From: Methanoregula sp.
Lineage (GTDB): Archaea > Halobacteriota > Methanomicrobia > Methanomicrobiales > Methanospirillaceae
Direction: 5' to 3'
Assembly (NCBI GenBank): GCA_022711635.1
Contig: JAKLEQ010000007.1
Location: 1 to 37,739 of the forward strand
Length of the DNA stretch: 37,739 nt
The notes under the pieces were generated by a model. It saw only the letters and a program-made list of their open reading frames with translations. It did no database searches and was not told the origin of the DNA. Each line of letters begins with the position of its first letter. The stretch's first letter is position 1. A program made the translations under genes and the position numbers. Shown in pieces: positions 2,139-35,062 of this stretch.

Positions 2139-5100
2139 GGGGGCACCCCCAGCAGGATAACGGCCATGAGGGCAAGGATGCCCCCGGTAAAGAGCGCGAT
2201 ATTTCCGCCCGCATCCCTGTCCTCCCACCGCATTGCGATCCTGCCTGCGGCGAAGAGGAGTTGGATTGCGGCTGCGACAGAGCGGAAAATCCCTGCAAAA
2301 GCTGCCTGGAGTACCCCTGCACCTGCGACAACACCACGGGCACCTGCTGCATACACGACATCCATGTCCACGAGCCGGGAGTCATGGGGCTCGAGGATCC
2401 CCTTGCCCACCGTAAAGAAAAATACAGCAGCGGCACCGAGCACGAGAATCGCACTCACGAGGTGAGCAGGATCATATGCTGCATAGTCAACGGGGACGGG
2501 GAGGAGAGCATAGAGCGCCTGCGGGAAGATCCCGATCAGGACGCATAATGCAGCCGCTCCCAGCATGCCTGCCTGCATGAGAAGCGGGGGATCGGTCGCG
2601 GATTCCGGGGCCGGGTTCCTCCCTTCCCGGAGAAACGCAAAGTATCCGAGTTTCAGGAACGAGAGGAATGTCCCGAACGACGCGATCTCCAGGAGCACCC
2701 AGATCCAGATACTGGTGTGCTCCGCGGCGGCGAGGACCATGCCCTTCGAGACGAACCCGTTGAAGAGGGGCACTCCCGCGATCGAGAACGCGGCGATCCA
2801 GAATGTAAGAGCCGTAACCGGCATCCTCTTCTGGAGACCTCCAACCCTGCTGAGCAGGTTCTCGCCGGTCTTCCAGACGATCACCCCGACCGCCATGAAG
2901 AGGAGCGCTTTGTAGAGGATGTGGTTGAAGACGTGTGCCATACCTCCGTCGAGCCCCAGCTGGGCGACGGTGTCTCCGGGGCCCAGCCAGCAGAGGATTC
3001 CCACCCCGGCGACCATGTACCCGACCTGCGAGACGATGTGGTACGAGAGCAGCCGGCGCATGTCGTTCTGGAAGACCGCGAAGGCCACACCGTAGACTGC
3101 CATGAATGCCCCCATGAAGGCGATGTACTCCGTTCCCGGCTGTGCCCGGGCGAGGAGATAGACCGCTGCTTTGGTGGTATAGACAGAGAGGAATACACTC
3201 GCAACGAAGTTCGCCCGGGGATACGCGTCGGGAAGCCATGTATGCAGGGGGATGAATGCAATGTTCACCCCGATCCCAAGGACGATAAGGATGGTAGCCC
3301 AGAACAAGTACGCGGATCCGGCGATATTTCCCAGCGGACCGACAACCAGGGATCCCCCGCCGAGCAGGAGAAGCGCGATGCCGGCAGCAAGCAGTGTACC
3401 GCCAAGACCGTGATACAGGAGATACCGGAAGCCCGCGGCAACCGCTTCCCCTCCCTCCTGCCAGATCAGGAACGTGGAAGTGACCGCCATCAGCTCCCAG
3501 AAGACAAGGAGCGTGATCCAGTCCCCCGCGAACGCGACGCCGAGCGCCGAGCCGGCGTAGAGAAGCGCAAAGAGGTGGAGGCGCGGGGGAGCGACTGCAG
3601 CCGCATAGAGAATGGCGAGGAGGGTGATTATGGCAAAGATAACCCCGGTCAGGTACGAGAGGGAGTCTACACGGAGAATCGTCAGAGTGTACCCCATGAA
3701 CGGGACGCTCCATTGCATGACGCCTTCGGAAACCGGACCGGTGATGTACCCGCCGGGCAGCACCAGAACATCGAGGAGCCCGACGACACCCAGCAGGACG
3801 AGCCCTGCCTGCCGTGCCCTGCCGGAAAGCGCGAGCACGAGCGGTGCCCCGACAAAGAAGATGATAAACGGTGGGACTGCAGTCCCATACAGGATCCCCC
3901 CGGGGATTGTGGCGGCGGCCCCCGTCACGACGGAAGCGACCTGTGTGCAGAGGGCGAACGGGCTGAACGGGGAGCTCGTCCAGAAACCAAGAACGACTGC
4001 CCCGGCCGCAGTCAGGATTACCGGGCCGCGGAGCGTCCAGCGCACGCGGGGAATATCGGTTACGCACTCCGGGAAGAAGGCCCGCATGATGACCGGCAGA
4101 AAATAGGCGAGGTTCAGGACGCTCGCCCCGACAAGGATAAGCAGCATCCACCATTCGCCGGAATAGCCCGCCCCGATCCCGACCGAGAGGTACCACTTGG
4201 CGATGAACCCTGCCATGGGTGGCAGCCCTGCCATCGAGAGCGCTGCGAGCGTGAACGCAATAAATTCGTACGGCATTTTCCTCCCGAGACCGTCCAGTTC
4301 CGAGATCCTGGTTTTACCCGTTTCGACAGCGACGGCTCCAGCCACGAAGAACATGCAGAGTTTCCCCAGTGCATGGGCAGCAAACGCGTACGTTGCGCCG
4401 ATGACCGCAGCCATCCTCCAGCTGTCAGAGACGCCGGTGATCCCGGCCGGCAGGAGCACGGCAATGCCAAGGACCATGTAACTGAGCTGGCTGACCGTGG
4501 AGTAGGCGAGCCGGAGCTTGAAATCATCCTGCATCAGCGCGAGCAGGGAACCCGTGACAATGGTGACGACGGCGGCAATAATTACCCATTCCCGCAGGCC
4601 AAGGCCGATCATCAGGTCAGGCCCGTACAGGTAGAGGATGAGCCGCATCAGGCCGAAGACCCCGGTGTTGACCACGGCGACAGCGTGCAGGAGCCCGCTG
4701 ACCGGGGTCGGGGCGACCATGGCGCTCGGGAGCCAGCCGTGCAGGGGCACGATAGCCGCCTTGACCCCGAAGCCGATAAAGAGGAGGAGGAAGGCAAGGC
4801 GGGCGAATTCCGGTGCAAGGATGCCCACGCCGGGATTTCCGCCCGCGATGAAGTCCAGGGAGCTGCCCATCCCCAAGAGCGTCATCATGCCCGCCAGAAT
4901 TGCGATACCCCCTCCCTGGGTATAGATGAGATACTTTTGTCCCGCCGCCAGTGCTTCTTTTGTCTCCGTGTGGACAACCAGCGGGTAGGCGGCAATGGCG
5001 AGGATCTCGTAAAAGACGAAGAGGGAGAAGACGTTGGTGGAGAGTGCAACTCCCATCACGGCACCGATCGTTATGGCAAAACAGGCGTAGTACCGTGTCT

Positions 5101-5431
5101 GGGCGTGTTCATGCCGGCCCCGCATGTACCCGATGCTGTAGACCGTGGTAATGATCCAGAGACCTGATGAGAGACAGGCAAAGAGCAGTCCCAGTGCATC
5201 GGCATACAGGTGGAGAGAAAGCCCGGGGAGCACCGCAAGTGGTGGGGTGGAGAGCGGATGTGCTGTGAATGCGGACGGGAGGACAAAAAGGCAGAGGCAG
5301 AATGTCAGGACGGCTGCAAGGAGGGATACCCCTTCCCGTGTGTCCGGGTGCCGGTTCAGGAGGATAATAGCACAACTTGCCGCAAACGGGACGAGGAGTA
5401 TTACGGGGAGGATCCACGCGGGGGAATCCAT
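2135..5431 (-). CDS. Giant two-module antiporter subunit (two NuoL/M/N-like domains fused in one protein)
   Basis: This open frame of 1098 residues is about twice the usual family length and contains two antiporter modules. Module 1 (about 1-500) shows FYEILA (E142), GVKAAIVPLHGWLP (K224) and APTPVSGLLHAVAVVNTG, where the usual lysine is N255. Module 2 (about 560-1098) shows FWELMA (E646), GVNIAFIPLHTWLPDAY with N723 in place of the usual lysine, and VYTTKAAVY (K754). The protein should lie in the membrane and conduct H+ or Na+ driven by the redox part of the complex. Its start overlaps the NuoK-like stop as TGATG; a GTG one codon upstream (5434, GTGA overlap) is equally possible. Its 3' end overlaps the next antiporter gene as ATGA. 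No frameshift or stop breaks the frame between modules, so the fusion is real in this sequence. Confidence 0.9.
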   Translation of the reverse strand: MDSPAWILPVILLVPFAASCAIILLNRHPDTREGVSLLAAVLTFCLCLFVLPSAFTAHPLSTPPLAVLPGLSLHLYADALGLLFACLSSGLWIITTVYSIGYMRGRHEHAQTRYYACFAITIGAVMGVALSTNVFSLFVFYEILAIAAYPLVVHTETKEALAAGQKYLIYTQGGGIAILAGMMTLLGMGSSLDFIAGGNPGVGILAPEFARLAFLLLFIGFGVKAAIVPLHGWLPSAMVAPTPVSGLLHAVAVVNTGVFGLMRLILYLYGPDLMIGLGLREWVIIAAVVTIVTGSLLALMQDDFKLRLAYSTVSQLSYMVLGIAVLLPAGITGVSDSWRMAAVIGATYAFAAHALGKLCMFFVAGAVAVETGKTRISELDGLGRKMPYEFIAFTLAALSMAGLPPMAGFIAKWYLSVGIGAGYSGEWWMLLILVGASVLNLAYFLPVIMRAFFPECVTDIPRVRWTLRGPVILTAAGAVVLGFWTSSPFSPFALCTQVASVVTGAAATIPGGILYGTAVPPFIIFFVGAPLVLALSGRARQAGLVLLGVVGLLDVLVLPGGYITGPVSEGVMQWSVPFMGYTLTILRVDSLSYLTGVIFAIITLLAILYAAAVAPPRLHLFALLYAGSALGVAFAGDWITLLVFWELMAVTSTFLIWQEGGEAVAAGFRYLLYHGLGGTLLAAGIALLLLGGGSLVVGPLGNIAGSAYLFWATILIVLGIGVNIAFIPLHTWLPDAYPRANFVASVFLSVYTTKAAVYLLARAQPGTEYIAFMGAFMAVYGVAFAVFQNDMRRLLSYHIVSQVGYMVAGVGILCWLGPGDTVAQLGLDGGMAHVFNHILYKALLFMAVGVIVWKTGENLLSRVGGLQKRMPVTALTFWIAAFSIAGVPLFNGFVSKGMVLAAAEHTSIWIWVLLEIASFGTFLSFLKLGYFAFLREGRNPAPESATDPPLLMQAGMLGAAALCVLIGIFPQALYALLPVPVDYAAYDPAHLVSAILVLGAAAVFFFTVGKGILEPHDSRLVDMDVVYAAGARGVVAGAGVLQAAFAGIFRSVAAAIQLLFAAGRIAMRWEDRDAGGNIALFTGGILALMAVILLGVPP

Positions 5432-5760
5432 CACGATCCATCCCCGCCGGCCTGCCGGAAGATAGCAGCAGAGTCCAGTGTCCCATACGTCTTTTTCAGC
5501 AGGATCGCAAGAGCAAGGGCAACCCCCGCAACGACTGCTTCAATGGCGATGACTGTTATCACGACTGCCTGGGAAACCCCGGTATGCCCGGCAGCATATC
5601 CGCCGGCGATGAAGAGCAGACATGCACCTTTCCCGCAGAACTCGAGCCCCATGATCATCTTGATGAGATGCCCCCGTGCGATCATGCAGGCAAGACCTAC
5701 TGCGAAAAGAGAGGCGGACGCGAGAAGGATGATCGGGAGCAGGAGGTCCCCGTTATTCAT
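5431..5760 (-). CDS. NuoK/MrpC/MbhG-like membrane subunit
   Basis: A 109-residue protein with three membrane segments. The two buried glutamates that mark the NuoK/MrpC family are present: MIMGLEFCGKG (E40) and VIAIEAVVAGVAL (E74). In complex I and Mrp/Mbh complexes these residues lie on the hydrophilic axis that transmits energy to the antiporter modules. The gene overlaps its upstream neighbour by ATGA and its downstream neighbour by TGATG, so translation of the whole cluster is probably coupled. The short charged C-terminal tail after residue 88 is ordinary for the family. Confidence 0.88.
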   Translation of the reverse strand: MNNGDLLLPIILLASASLFAVGLACMIARGHLIKMIMGLEFCGKGACLLFIAGGYAAGHTGVSQAVVITVIAIEAVVAGVALALAILLKKTYGTLDSAAIFRQAGGDGS

Positions 5761-32649: not shown

Positions 32650-33141
32650 TCATATGTACTCCTGCTGGATGGCGATTACCTCCGTGCTATCCTTCGCCCC
32701 TGCGTAGCGTGCGAGCGGTTCCGCGTTCACCTCGAGGAACCGGATCCCCCAGCTTACCTTCCCGAGGATCTCCTGTGCCTGCTCCTTCTCCCCCATAATG
32801 AACAAGGCTCCGGCAAGTGCCTCGACCGAGGAGAGCATGCAGGGTTTCCCGAAGTTAACCGGGTTTGCTGCCATGAGGAACGGGAGCGCCCGGCGGATCC
32901 GCCACGAGCTTATAGCGCCGCAGTCGAGCACCTCCCATGAACAGTCGAGGGCAGTGACCGACTTCACGGTCCGGTCCGCGGGGGAGAGTGCCTGTTCCGC
33001 CGTCGGGTCGAGGAGGAGCGTGTTCCGCGGGATCGCGTTAAGTTTTGTCACGATCCGGATGAGGCCCGCCCGCTCCAGCTTCTTCACCGTGCACTTCCTC
33101 GGGTCGCAGCTGTTGTCCCGGTAGGCGAAGAGGGGGATCAT
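32650..33141 (-). CDS. tsr3: 16S rRNA aminocarboxypropyltransferase (Tsr3 family)
   Basis: This 163-residue protein matches Tsr3 (DUF367), which transfers the 3-amino-3-carboxypropyl group of AdoMet to a hypermodified pseudouridine in small-subunit rRNA. Characteristic blocks are DNSCDPRKCTVKKLERAGL, LLLDPTAEQALSPADR, ALDCSWEVLD and RALPFLMAANPVNFGKPCMLSSVEALAGALFIMG. The start at 33141 is the natural family N-terminus. It is divergent from the next gene, with only 30 bases between the two start codons. Confidence 0.93.
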   Translation of the reverse strand: MIPLFAYRDNSCDPRKCTVKKLERAGLIRIVTKLNAIPRNTLLLDPTAEQALSPADRTVKSVTALDCSWEVLDCGAISSWRIRRALPFLMAANPVNFGKPCMLSSVEALAGALFIMGEKEQAQEILGKVSWGIRFLEVNAEPLARYAGAKDSTEVIAIQQEYI

Positions 33142-33171
33142 TGATCATCTGTGGGAACGTAAGAGCTATCA

Positions 33172-34032
33172 ATGTACGTGCTGGTCTCCCCCTGCGTCCT
33201 CAACCCGTCGCTTAGGGCAGAAGGGATCACCCGCCCGTCCGATATCGCAGCCTTCAACCGGGCAAAGGAGCGGTGCCGACGGTTCGGCATCGAAATGGTC
33301 CCGCTTCCCTGCCCGGAGACGATCTATCTCGGCGCAGGACGGTCCCCCGGCACCTATCTCGAACGACTCAATACCCCGGCATTCCTGCGGCTGATTGAAG
33401 AGCTGGAATCGCAGGTCAGGATAGAGATCGCGGAGCGCGGACCCCCGCTCTGCATCGTCGGGGTCAACTCATCACCGACCTGCGGGGTCACGAGCACGTA
33501 TTACGGAGAGGAAGGCGGAAAACCCCCGAAACGGGAAGGGCGGGGCGTCTTCCTCGCACGGTTCCCGGACATCCCTGCCATCGATGTCATCAAATTCGCC
33601 CGGTACCGTATCTATCTCGCCGCCCCGCTCTTCTCGGAAGCGGAGCGGGCATATAATGCGGCGCTGGCCCGGCTTCTTGAGGAGAATCTCTTCGATGTCT
33701 ACGTCCCGCAGGACGCTGGCGACGACTCTTCCGGAAGGGATCTTACGGAGCATTCCCGGATGTTCTCCGCCCACCGGGAGGCACTGGATACTGCAGATGC
33801 CGTGGTTGCCATCATCGATGGTGCGGATGCGGATTCCGGGACCGCATGGGAGATGGGGTACGCTTCAGCGCGGGGAACACCGGTCTTCGCGCTCCGGACT
33901 GACTTCCGGAAAGTCGGGGTCCACGAGCATGTCAACCTGATGCTGGAGCAGTCCGCGACCCTCGTGACGAGCCAGAAAGCCCTTCTTACCGCCCTCAATT
34001 CCCCGCTCGCAGAAATCCCTCTTTCGGGGTGA
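33172..34032 (+). CDS. Fusion: TudS/DUF523-like thiouracil desulfurase domain + nucleoside 2-deoxyribosyltransferase
   Basis: This 286-residue protein has two domains. The N-terminal half (about 1-145) resembles DUF523/TudS, Fe-S enzymes that remove sulfur from thiouracil: C8 in SPCVLN, C47 in PLPCPE and C104 in NSSPTCG lie where the three cluster ligands of TudS are expected. The C-terminal half (about 150-275) is a nucleoside 2-deoxyribosyltransferase with RIYLAAPLFSEAERAYN and the catalytic-type DADSGTAWEMGYASA (Glu in EMGYA). One polypeptide with base desulfuration and glycosidic-bond chemistry suggests a role in clearing or salvaging thiolated bases or nucleosides. That role is inference; each domain call is well supported by motifs. 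Confidence 0.82.
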   Translation: MYVLVSPCVLNPSLRAEGITRPSDIAAFNRAKERCRRFGIEMVPLPCPETIYLGAGRSPGTYLERLNTPAFLRLIEELESQVRIEIAERGPPLCIVGVNSSPTCGVTSTYYGEEGGKPPKREGRGVFLARFPDIPAIDVIKFARYRIYLAAPLFSEAERAYNAALARLLEENLFDVYVPQDAGDDSSGRDLTEHSRMFSAHREALDTADAVVAIIDGADADSGTAWEMGYASARGTPVFALRTDFRKVGVHEHVNLMLEQSATLVTSQKALLTALNSPLAEIPLSG

Positions 34033-34090: not shown

Positions 34091-35062
34091 ATGCCAAACC
34101 TGACCGTTGCAGTCGTCGCCCCCAACGACTATGCAAAGGACCTCGGGAAGAAGGGGACGGTAAGCGACCTCACGTTCTACAACCTGAAGAAAGGGAACGA
34201 TACGGTCACCTTCGTCGAACCGACCCGCTATCCCGAGAAGCTTTCCTCCCTCTTCTTCGCGCTCTCGATGGCGGACAGCGTGCTGCTCGTCGTTTCCGAG
34301 ATTAACGCCCAGTTCGGCGAGTGCGTTCTGGAACTCCAGTCCATCGGCATGAAGAAGGGGAAGCTGATCCTCAAGAATTACATCTCGCAGGACCAGATCG
34401 CTCCCCTCATCCAGGGCACTGTCCTCCAGCACTACACCGTCGTCGCCGAGGAGTTCATCACACTGCGGGATAGCTTTCTTGCGGAAGCGGCGAAGAAGGG
34501 CAGCAGCGGGAACATCAGGAGCGGGGCGTCGGGGGGATCCGTCCCTGTCGACCACCACTTCAACGTCAAGGGTGTCGGCATCGTCGTCCTCGGCTGCGTT
34601 GCGGAAGGAACGATCCGGAAGCACGACAACCTCAAGGTAGTCCCGAACGGAAAGATTGCACAGGTCCGGTCCATCCAGAAACACGACGATGACGCCGAGA
34701 GCGCGATTGCCGGTGACCGGGTCGGGCTCGCGCTCAAGAATATCGAGGAGGAGGACCTCGACCGGGGATTCGTGCTCACGAACGATCCGACGCTCAAAAC
34801 CGCGTCGTCCGTGACGGCAAAGGCGGCACTCGTGAAGTACTGGCCTGCCCCGCTGAAGGAAGGGATGGTCCTCTACCTCGGCCACTGGATGCAGTTCCTC
34901 CCCTGCAGGGTGGAGAAGGTCGTGGCGGAGAACGACTGGCGGATGCCGACCCTTACCCTTGGGCTCGACAAGGAGCTCGTCTTCCCCCCGGGTGCGACTG
35001 CGGTGCTCCACTACCTTGAAGGCGGGAAGCTGCGCGTGGCCGGGTCGATGAAGCTCCCGTAA
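34091..35062 (+). CDS. SelB-like translation factor homologue without GTPase motifs (aSelBL type)
   Basis: This 323-residue protein keeps the outline of an EF-Tu/SelB-type factor: an N-terminal region in the position of the G domain (about 1-130), a domain 2 ([27 protein letters not shown], about 152-240) and a domain 3-like C-terminus. The P-loop, DxxG and NKxD motifs are absent, so it cannot bind GTP in the usual way. It fits the archaeal SelB-like family (aSelBL), of unknown function. The ATG at 34091 has no clear Shine-Dalgarno. It is flanked by the fusion gene and by lemA. Confidence 0.75.

Follow-up and report, generated by a model that had tools for sequence, protein, structure and literature searches.

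The window analysed here is the whole 37,739-nucleotide stretch of Methanoregula sp. contig JAKLEQ010000007.1 (assembly GCA_022711635.1). Positions 33172–34032 encode a protein in which an N-terminal half related to the thiouracil desulfidase TudS is fused to a C-terminal half of the nucleoside 2-deoxyribosyltransferase (NDT) family. Both enzyme families are known, and the domain architecture is new; it is order-wide and ancient in Methanomicrobiales. An earlier note, made from the sequence alone, knew of no description of this combination, and none was found in the open-access literature (most subscription journals lie outside this scope). The fusion may be a bifunctional enzyme of Methanomicrobiales that clears thio-nucleosides arising from the turnover of tRNA with 4-thiouridine (s4U) or 2-thiouridine (s2U). 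This role is proposed tentatively, with slightly less than even confidence.

The fusion gene

The gene is organized as follows.

33172..34032, + strand: TudS-NDT fusion gene, an intact open reading frame with an ATG start, 286 amino acids, without internal stop
33172..33576, + strand: TudS-like half, about residues 1–135 (NF045597 at residues 3–132; fold match to TudS 6z92/6z93/6z96)
33577..33600, + strand: short linker, residues 136–143, identical in length in 20 aligned sequences
33601..33996, + strand: NDT-family half, about residues 144–275 (PF05014, E 6e-27; fold match to 7o62)

The source genome is a 1.86-Mb, 77%-complete assembly, in which no second TudS-like or NDT-like protein was found besides the fusion. 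Among the best 80 of 178 matches listed, the nearest named full-length relative is Methanoregula sp. PtaU1.Bin051, which is 78% identical. The open reading frame is not a product of chance because full-length orthologues are found throughout the order; together with low ratios of nonsynonymous to synonymous substitution rates (dN/dS), they also rule out a sequencing artefact. Misassembly is ruled out as genomes assembled into a single contig, G032, G040, and G044 among them, also carry the fusion. As for a virus or plasmid origin, no fusion was seen in the viral contigs or plasmids searched, and there was no PADLOC match. Automatic annotation probably lists the fusion simply as a deoxyribosyltransferase, because the NDT half alone exceeds a curated cut-off.

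The TudS-like half

Pfam PF04463 (2-thiouracil desulfurase) matches residues 3–130 weakly, with 20.2 bits against a cut-off of 34.7; 17 of 20 orthologues match it at E ≤ 0.01. NCBIfam NF045597, the CD3072 TudS-related putative desulfidase family, matches residues 3–132 with an E-value of 4e-15 and 55.7 bits, under its equivalog cut-off of 130 bits. Judged by these matches, CD3072 is the family nearest to the N-terminal half. A bacterial member is 37% identical over residues 3–109. CD3072 proteins are stand-alone, unlike the fusion, and in Enterococcus the gene lies within a selenium operon.

An AlphaFold2 model of the full-length protein was built on a 46-sequence alignment (predicted local distance difference test score, pLDDT, 94; predicted template modelling score 0.89). 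The fold search of the PDB with this model placed only NDT structures near the top, and the N-terminal half was therefore folded separately. For residues 1–141 alone, the model reaches a pLDDT of 92, and TudS entries take the first three places among its PDB matches (6z92, 6z93, and 6z96; probability 1.00, template modelling score 0.55–0.61, E-values 2e-3 to 5e-3). All other matches have a probability of 0.66 or less. The PDB sequence search with this half returned no relevant match, while the fold search did. The suggestion in the earlier note that this half is TudS-like is thus supported by structure prediction. A profile alignment to the TudS domain of RudS_vir, an experimentally studied protein from Escherichia phage 1H12 (Table 1, PMC11417400), has an E-value of 4e-6 and places Cys8, Arg15, the CPE motif, and SPxCG opposite the equivalent residues. 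RudS_vir itself matches TudS 6z92.

The residues corresponding to the TudS active site are listed here, with conservation counted over 76 fusion sequences (orthologues).

33193..33195, + strand: Cys8, predicted [4Fe-4S] ligand (TudS_A Cys10), 76/76, aligned to RudS_vir
33214..33216, + strand: Arg15, counterpart of TudS Arg17, 76/76, aligned to RudS_vir
33310..33318, + strand: Cys47-Pro48-Glu49, predicted cluster ligand and catalytic Glu (TudS_A Cys43 and Glu45), Cys47 and Glu49 76/76, aligned to RudS_vir
33340..33342, + strand: Arg57, probable counterpart of RudS Arg60, 75/76
33472..33483, + strand: Ser101-Pro-Thr-Cys104 (TudS_A Ser101, Ser103, which is Thr here, and Cys104), Ser101, Pro102, and Cys104 76/76

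In TudS, Cys10, Cys43, and Cys104 are the cluster ligands and Glu45, Ser101, and Ser103 act in catalysis, while Arg17 was docked to the phosphate of the substrate, for which 4-thio-UMP (UMP, uridine monophosphate) is preferred (PMC10611767). The RudS counterparts are Glu51, Ser111, Ser113, and Arg60 (PMC11417400). The assignment of Cys8, Cys47, and Cys104 as putative Fe-S ligands, already made in the earlier note, agrees with their invariance and their alignment with RudS_vir. Cys35 (33274–33276) is also invariant in all 76 fusions, yet lies outside the TudS ligand set.

Compared with TudS (DUF523, PF04463; PMC10611767), the fusion shares the predicted fold, the three Cys ligands, the Glu of the CPE motif, Ser101, and the Arg seven residues after the ligand Cys. 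It differs in scoring under the Pfam cut-off, in having mostly Thr or Ala in place of Ser103, and in the attached NDT domain, and its activity is a predicted one. The predicted mechanism is as follows. A [4Fe-4S] cluster held by Cys8, Cys47, and Cys104 would take the sulfur of thiolated uracil (4-thio or 2-thio) on its free fourth iron. As in the mechanism proposed for TudS, the water that attacks would be activated by Glu49 and Ser101, and the products would be uracil and sulfide. The desulfidase reading of this half is strong on predicted fold and residues, and TudS-type chemistry, for this half taken alone, is quite probable.

The NDT half

Pfam PF05014 matches residues 147–251 with 94.5 bits against a cut-off of 28.8, and the full-length model matches NDT structures in the fold search (7o62, E 2e-9). 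The corresponding active-site residues are as follows.

33613..33615, + strand: Tyr148 (LlNDT/CtNDT Tyr7), 76/76
33772..33774, + strand: His201, at the position of LlNDT Asp72/CtNDT Asp62; His in 42, Asn in 30, Cys in 3, and Leu in 1 of the 76
33832..33834, + strand: Asp221, 5'-OH contact (LlNDT Asp92, CtNDT Asp82), 76/76
33850..33852, + strand: Glu227, predicted nucleophile (LlNDT Glu98, CtNDT Glu88), 76/76
33934..33942, + strand: Asn255-Leu-Met257, the NLM motif, which completes the site of the neighbouring subunit in NDTs; Asn255 76/76, Leu256 and Met257 75/76

The register of His201 was set by PDB alignments, in which it is opposite Asn in the CtNDT D62N chain 8pqp and Asp in the wild-type 8rh3. 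The NDT motifs had been considered intact. This holds for the Glu, Tyr, Asp, Asn, and NLM, but not for the base-side Asp, which is His201 here and His, Asn, Cys, or Leu in the orthologues. The NDT half is a genuine family member in which one active-site substitution alters the expected substrate. It resembles CtNDT, LlNDT, the Desulfotalea protein 7o62, and Archaeoglobus AvNRT in predicted fold, nucleophile Glu, 5'-OH Asp and Asn, and NLM, and shares Tyr7 with the family. The base-side His or Asn is the difference; AvNRT has Phe7 and keeps the Asp, and none of these proteins is fused to a desulfidase.

Asp221 and Asn255 correspond to D82 and N118 of CtNDT, which are near the 5'-OH (PMC10913048). 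Because these contacts are retained, a nucleoside rather than a nucleotide is the expected substrate. A nucleotide-type glycosidase (RCL/DNPH1, MilB) is disfavoured for the same reason: these phosphate-binding enzymes differ at the 5'-OH contact positions.

CtNDT D62 is 2.6 Å from the 2'-OH, and the clash is proposed to reduce efficiency on ribonucleosides; D62N retains about 50% of the wild-type efficiency, so D62 is non-essential (PMC10913048). Since this carboxylate disfavours the 2'-OH and is lost at position 201, the substitution suggests tolerance of ribose. With His or Asn at this position, ribonucleosides appear at least as likely to be substrates as deoxyribonucleosides. The comparison is not one-sided: the LlNDT double mutant Y7F/D72N is worse than the wild type, while in TbNDT an analogous pair of changes was beneficial (PMC11647913). 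AvNRT, an archaeal relative, has Phe7; it is a natural purine ribosyltransferase and is inactive on pyrimidine nucleosides (PMC7308715). In the proposed reaction, the nucleoside has a free 5'-OH, contacted by Asp221 and Asn255, and Glu227 would attack C1' of the nucleoside. The NDT half would free the base and transfer the sugar either to water or to a second base. Ribonucleosides would be accepted through His or Asn at 201.

Distribution and evolution of the fusion

The search for proteins with both domains, as proposed in the earlier note, revealed full-length fusions throughout Methanomicrobiales. Among 49 good genomes of relatives, 48 have a match and 45 have a full-length, uninterrupted one. 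G038 and G048 contain the NDT half only, the gene of G005 is frameshifted, and G002 has no match. G005 is complete and belongs to the same genus; its frameshift and truncation result from an exact tandem duplication of 100 bp within the NDT half (L218, about 4.0–4.9 kb, − strand). Across the 295 genomes searched in the phylum, Methanomicrobiales alone have full-length fusions, and elsewhere the halves are seen only as separate proteins. In Methanosarcinaceae-type genomes, the two halves correspond to separate genes, the NDT homologues being close (E about 1e-43) and the TudS homologues distant (E about 1e-10).

In a scan of genome contigs, the best 80 of 178 relatives were kept. These are fusions of Methanomicrobiales, including Methanoregula, Methanolinea, Methanoculleus, Methanofollis, Methanocalculus, and others. 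One contig in this set (L154) is labelled candidate division WOR-3 (UBA6260) and carries the fusion. It is probably misbinned, because the 50 bases upstream equal those of Methanoregulaceae UBA467 (L147).

In the NDT tree, the fusions form one group (support 98/95). Two NDT-only proteins of Methanocorpusculaceae type are nested among them, beside a fusion (99/96). This nesting indicates a single origin of the fusion and a later loss of the TudS half. The reverse case is G008 (L217, about 5030–5680, − strand), in which a TudS half only, 48% identical, has an unrelated C-terminal tail; there is no NDT in L217 and no tsr3 in its vicinity. In comparisons of the fusion with five close relatives whose dS is unsaturated, dN/dS is 0.11–0.30 for the TudS half and 0.11–0.17 for the NDT half. 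Both halves are under purifying selection.

This distribution bears on the possibility that two independent housekeeping activities share one polypeptide. The TudS half would then act on thio-UMP or thiouridine and the NDT half on unrelated nucleosides, such as purine ribonucleosides, with the fusion serving co-expression. Some relatives keep each half without the other, Methanosarcinaceae have separate genes in different neighbourhoods, and AvNRT takes purines and not pyrimidine nucleosides (PMC7308715). On the other hand, nearly the whole order retains the fusion, with a short linker of constant length. Independent activities are possible, and on balance fairly unlikely.

Gene neighbourhood

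The features around the fusion gene are as follows.

32650..33141, − strand: tsr3/DUF367 gene (16S rRNA aminocarboxypropyltransferase family), conserved divergent neighbour of the fusion
33142..33171, no strand: 30-bp gap separating the start codons of the divergent tsr3 and fusion genes, with TATCA directly before the fusion start
34091–35062, + strand: gene for a SelB-like protein (aSelBL type, PMC3037878), directly after the fusion only in some near relatives

tsr3 is divergent from and adjacent to the fusion in 19 of 20 loci read, and the two start codons are 29–37 bp apart in 66 of 75 loci. The sequence TATCA is immediately 5' of the fusion start in 52 of the 75, and GATCA immediately 5' of the tsr3 start in 23. 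These motifs perhaps represent a shared promoter or initiator. tsr3 still adjoins the NDT-only gene in L103 and is near the NDT-only gene in L104. tsr3 is the sole conserved neighbour, and it is uninformative about the function of the fusion. That the NDT half might remove the methylthioadenosine produced by Tsr3 was also considered, but this idea was set aside for lack of evidence.

The presence of an RNA-modification gene next to the fusion also fits an eraser similar to RudS (TudS-DUF1722, a tRNA s4U desulfidase), in which the desulfidase half would act on intact tRNA and the NDT half would be a recognition module like DUF1722. In RudS, it is the second domain that makes TudS act on tRNA (PMC11417400). 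In both RudS and the fusion, a second domain comes after TudS, and the catalytic core residues are the same. However, the fusion is archaeal, its second domain is PF05014 with no Pfam match to DUF1722, and action on tRNA is not indicated. The nucleophile, Tyr, 5'-OH contacts, and NLM of the NDT half show little or no variation, a degree of conservation that binding alone would not require, and NDT-only relatives persist. An eraser of this type is very unlikely.

The genes downstream of the fusion are variable; only some of the near relatives have aSelBL, LemA, and DUF2207 there. The aSelBL-type family retains tRNA-binding sites (PMC3037878). In the megaplasmids of Enterococcus gilvus and E. 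raffinosus (L215 5977–6477; L216 5974–6483), a CD3072 gene is directly after selA. The gene order is selD-yedF-DUF3343-selB-aminotransferase-selA, the CD3072 gene, and a gene for the S-component of an energy-coupling factor (ECF) transporter. Because the CD3072 gene follows this run of selenium genes, a selenium-related alternative stays open. The TudS-like half could strip sulfur or selenium from another small molecule, for example a base with sulfur or selenium that is not thiouridine from tRNA, and the NDT half could prepare or recycle the nucleoside of that compound. The nearest bacterial relatives, at the 37% identity given above, end the selenium operon by the ECF transporter gene, and the Ser103 position is relaxed in the fusions. 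Against this, the TudS Glu, Ser101, Arg15, Arg57, and three ligands are all retained, the Enterococcus context amounts to one type of operon, seen in two species, and the aSelBL-bearing Methanomicrobiales are listed without SelD (PMC3037878). Such a substrate seems quite unlikely, if somewhat less so than action on intact tRNA.

In nine Methanosarcinaceae-type loci, a stand-alone CD3072-like tudS is near ncsA, with a membrane-protein gene on the opposite strand between them. The ncsA product of L106 is under the NF047749 cut-off and over the TIGR00269 cut-off. The neighbours of the stand-alone Methanosarcinaceae NDT gene resemble argC, AMMECR1, and pgk, as judged from sequence reading; no thiolation link is seen in this neighbourhood.

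Metabolic setting and proposed role

ThiI, for s4U, is present in 12 of 12 related genomes checked, and NcsA, for s2U, in 11 of 11 complete ones; NcsA was not found in the incomplete genome of the window. The relatives therefore hold tRNA thiolation enzymes able to supply substrates. A PNP-family protein is also present in 12 of 12 genomes checked. With this supply, the fusion could clear thio-nucleosides from s4U and s2U tRNA turnover through the joint action of both halves. The proposal in the earlier note of a clean-up of thiolated (deoxy)nucleosides is in line with ThiI and NcsA in the relatives, but position 201 points to ribonucleosides at least as much. Likewise, the sulfide-rich anaerobic habitat that it invoked for thio-tRNA turnover is unnecessary; ordinary tRNA turnover is enough.

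Several observations weigh against this joint role. The halves may not share a substrate, because TudS prefers a nucleotide, whereas the residues of the NDT half suit a nucleoside whose 5'-OH is free. Some relatives retain each half alone, and these natural single-half versions show that the two activities are not strictly interdependent. Uracil phosphoribosyltransferase is over the Pfam cut-off in just 2 of 11 complete Methanomicrobiales genomes; the nine without it at this cut-off are G005, G010, G011, G019, G029, G032, G040, G044, and G038. In most of these genomes, free uracil could not be salvaged by this route, and release of the base followed by salvage therefore fits poorly as a simple scheme. 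The N-terminal half scores under both the Pfam and the NCBIfam cut-offs, and CD3072, its nearest named family, is itself putative. At the TudS Ser103 position, the 76 fusions have Thr (55), Ala (17), Val (2), Cys (1), and Ser (1), with Thr103 in the window, while three archaeal stand-alone relatives examined have Ser. Finally, the proximity of tudS and ncsA in Methanosarcinaceae may be plain shared ancestry, so it lends weak support to a link with thio-tRNA metabolism.

In its most specific form, the proposal would make the fusion a third TudS architecture: an archaeal enzyme with two activities, desulfurization of thiouridine from tRNA and cleavage or exchange of the ribose of this nucleoside by an NDT domain accepting ribonucleosides through the change of Asp to His or Asn. 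With all these parts together, it is unlikely, to about the same degree as the two independent activities.

The making of thiolated tRNA bases is well studied. To our knowledge, the characterized enzymes for their removal are the bacterial TudS and RudS. Through the fusion, thio-nucleoside turnover could be approached in archaea as well. The fusion likewise makes it testable whether the natural change of Asp to His or Asn opens an NDT domain to ribonucleosides, which is relevant to nucleoside biocatalysis. If the proposed role is true, methanogens would possess a dedicated enzyme for thio-nucleoside turnover, kept in nearly all Methanomicrobiales genomes examined.
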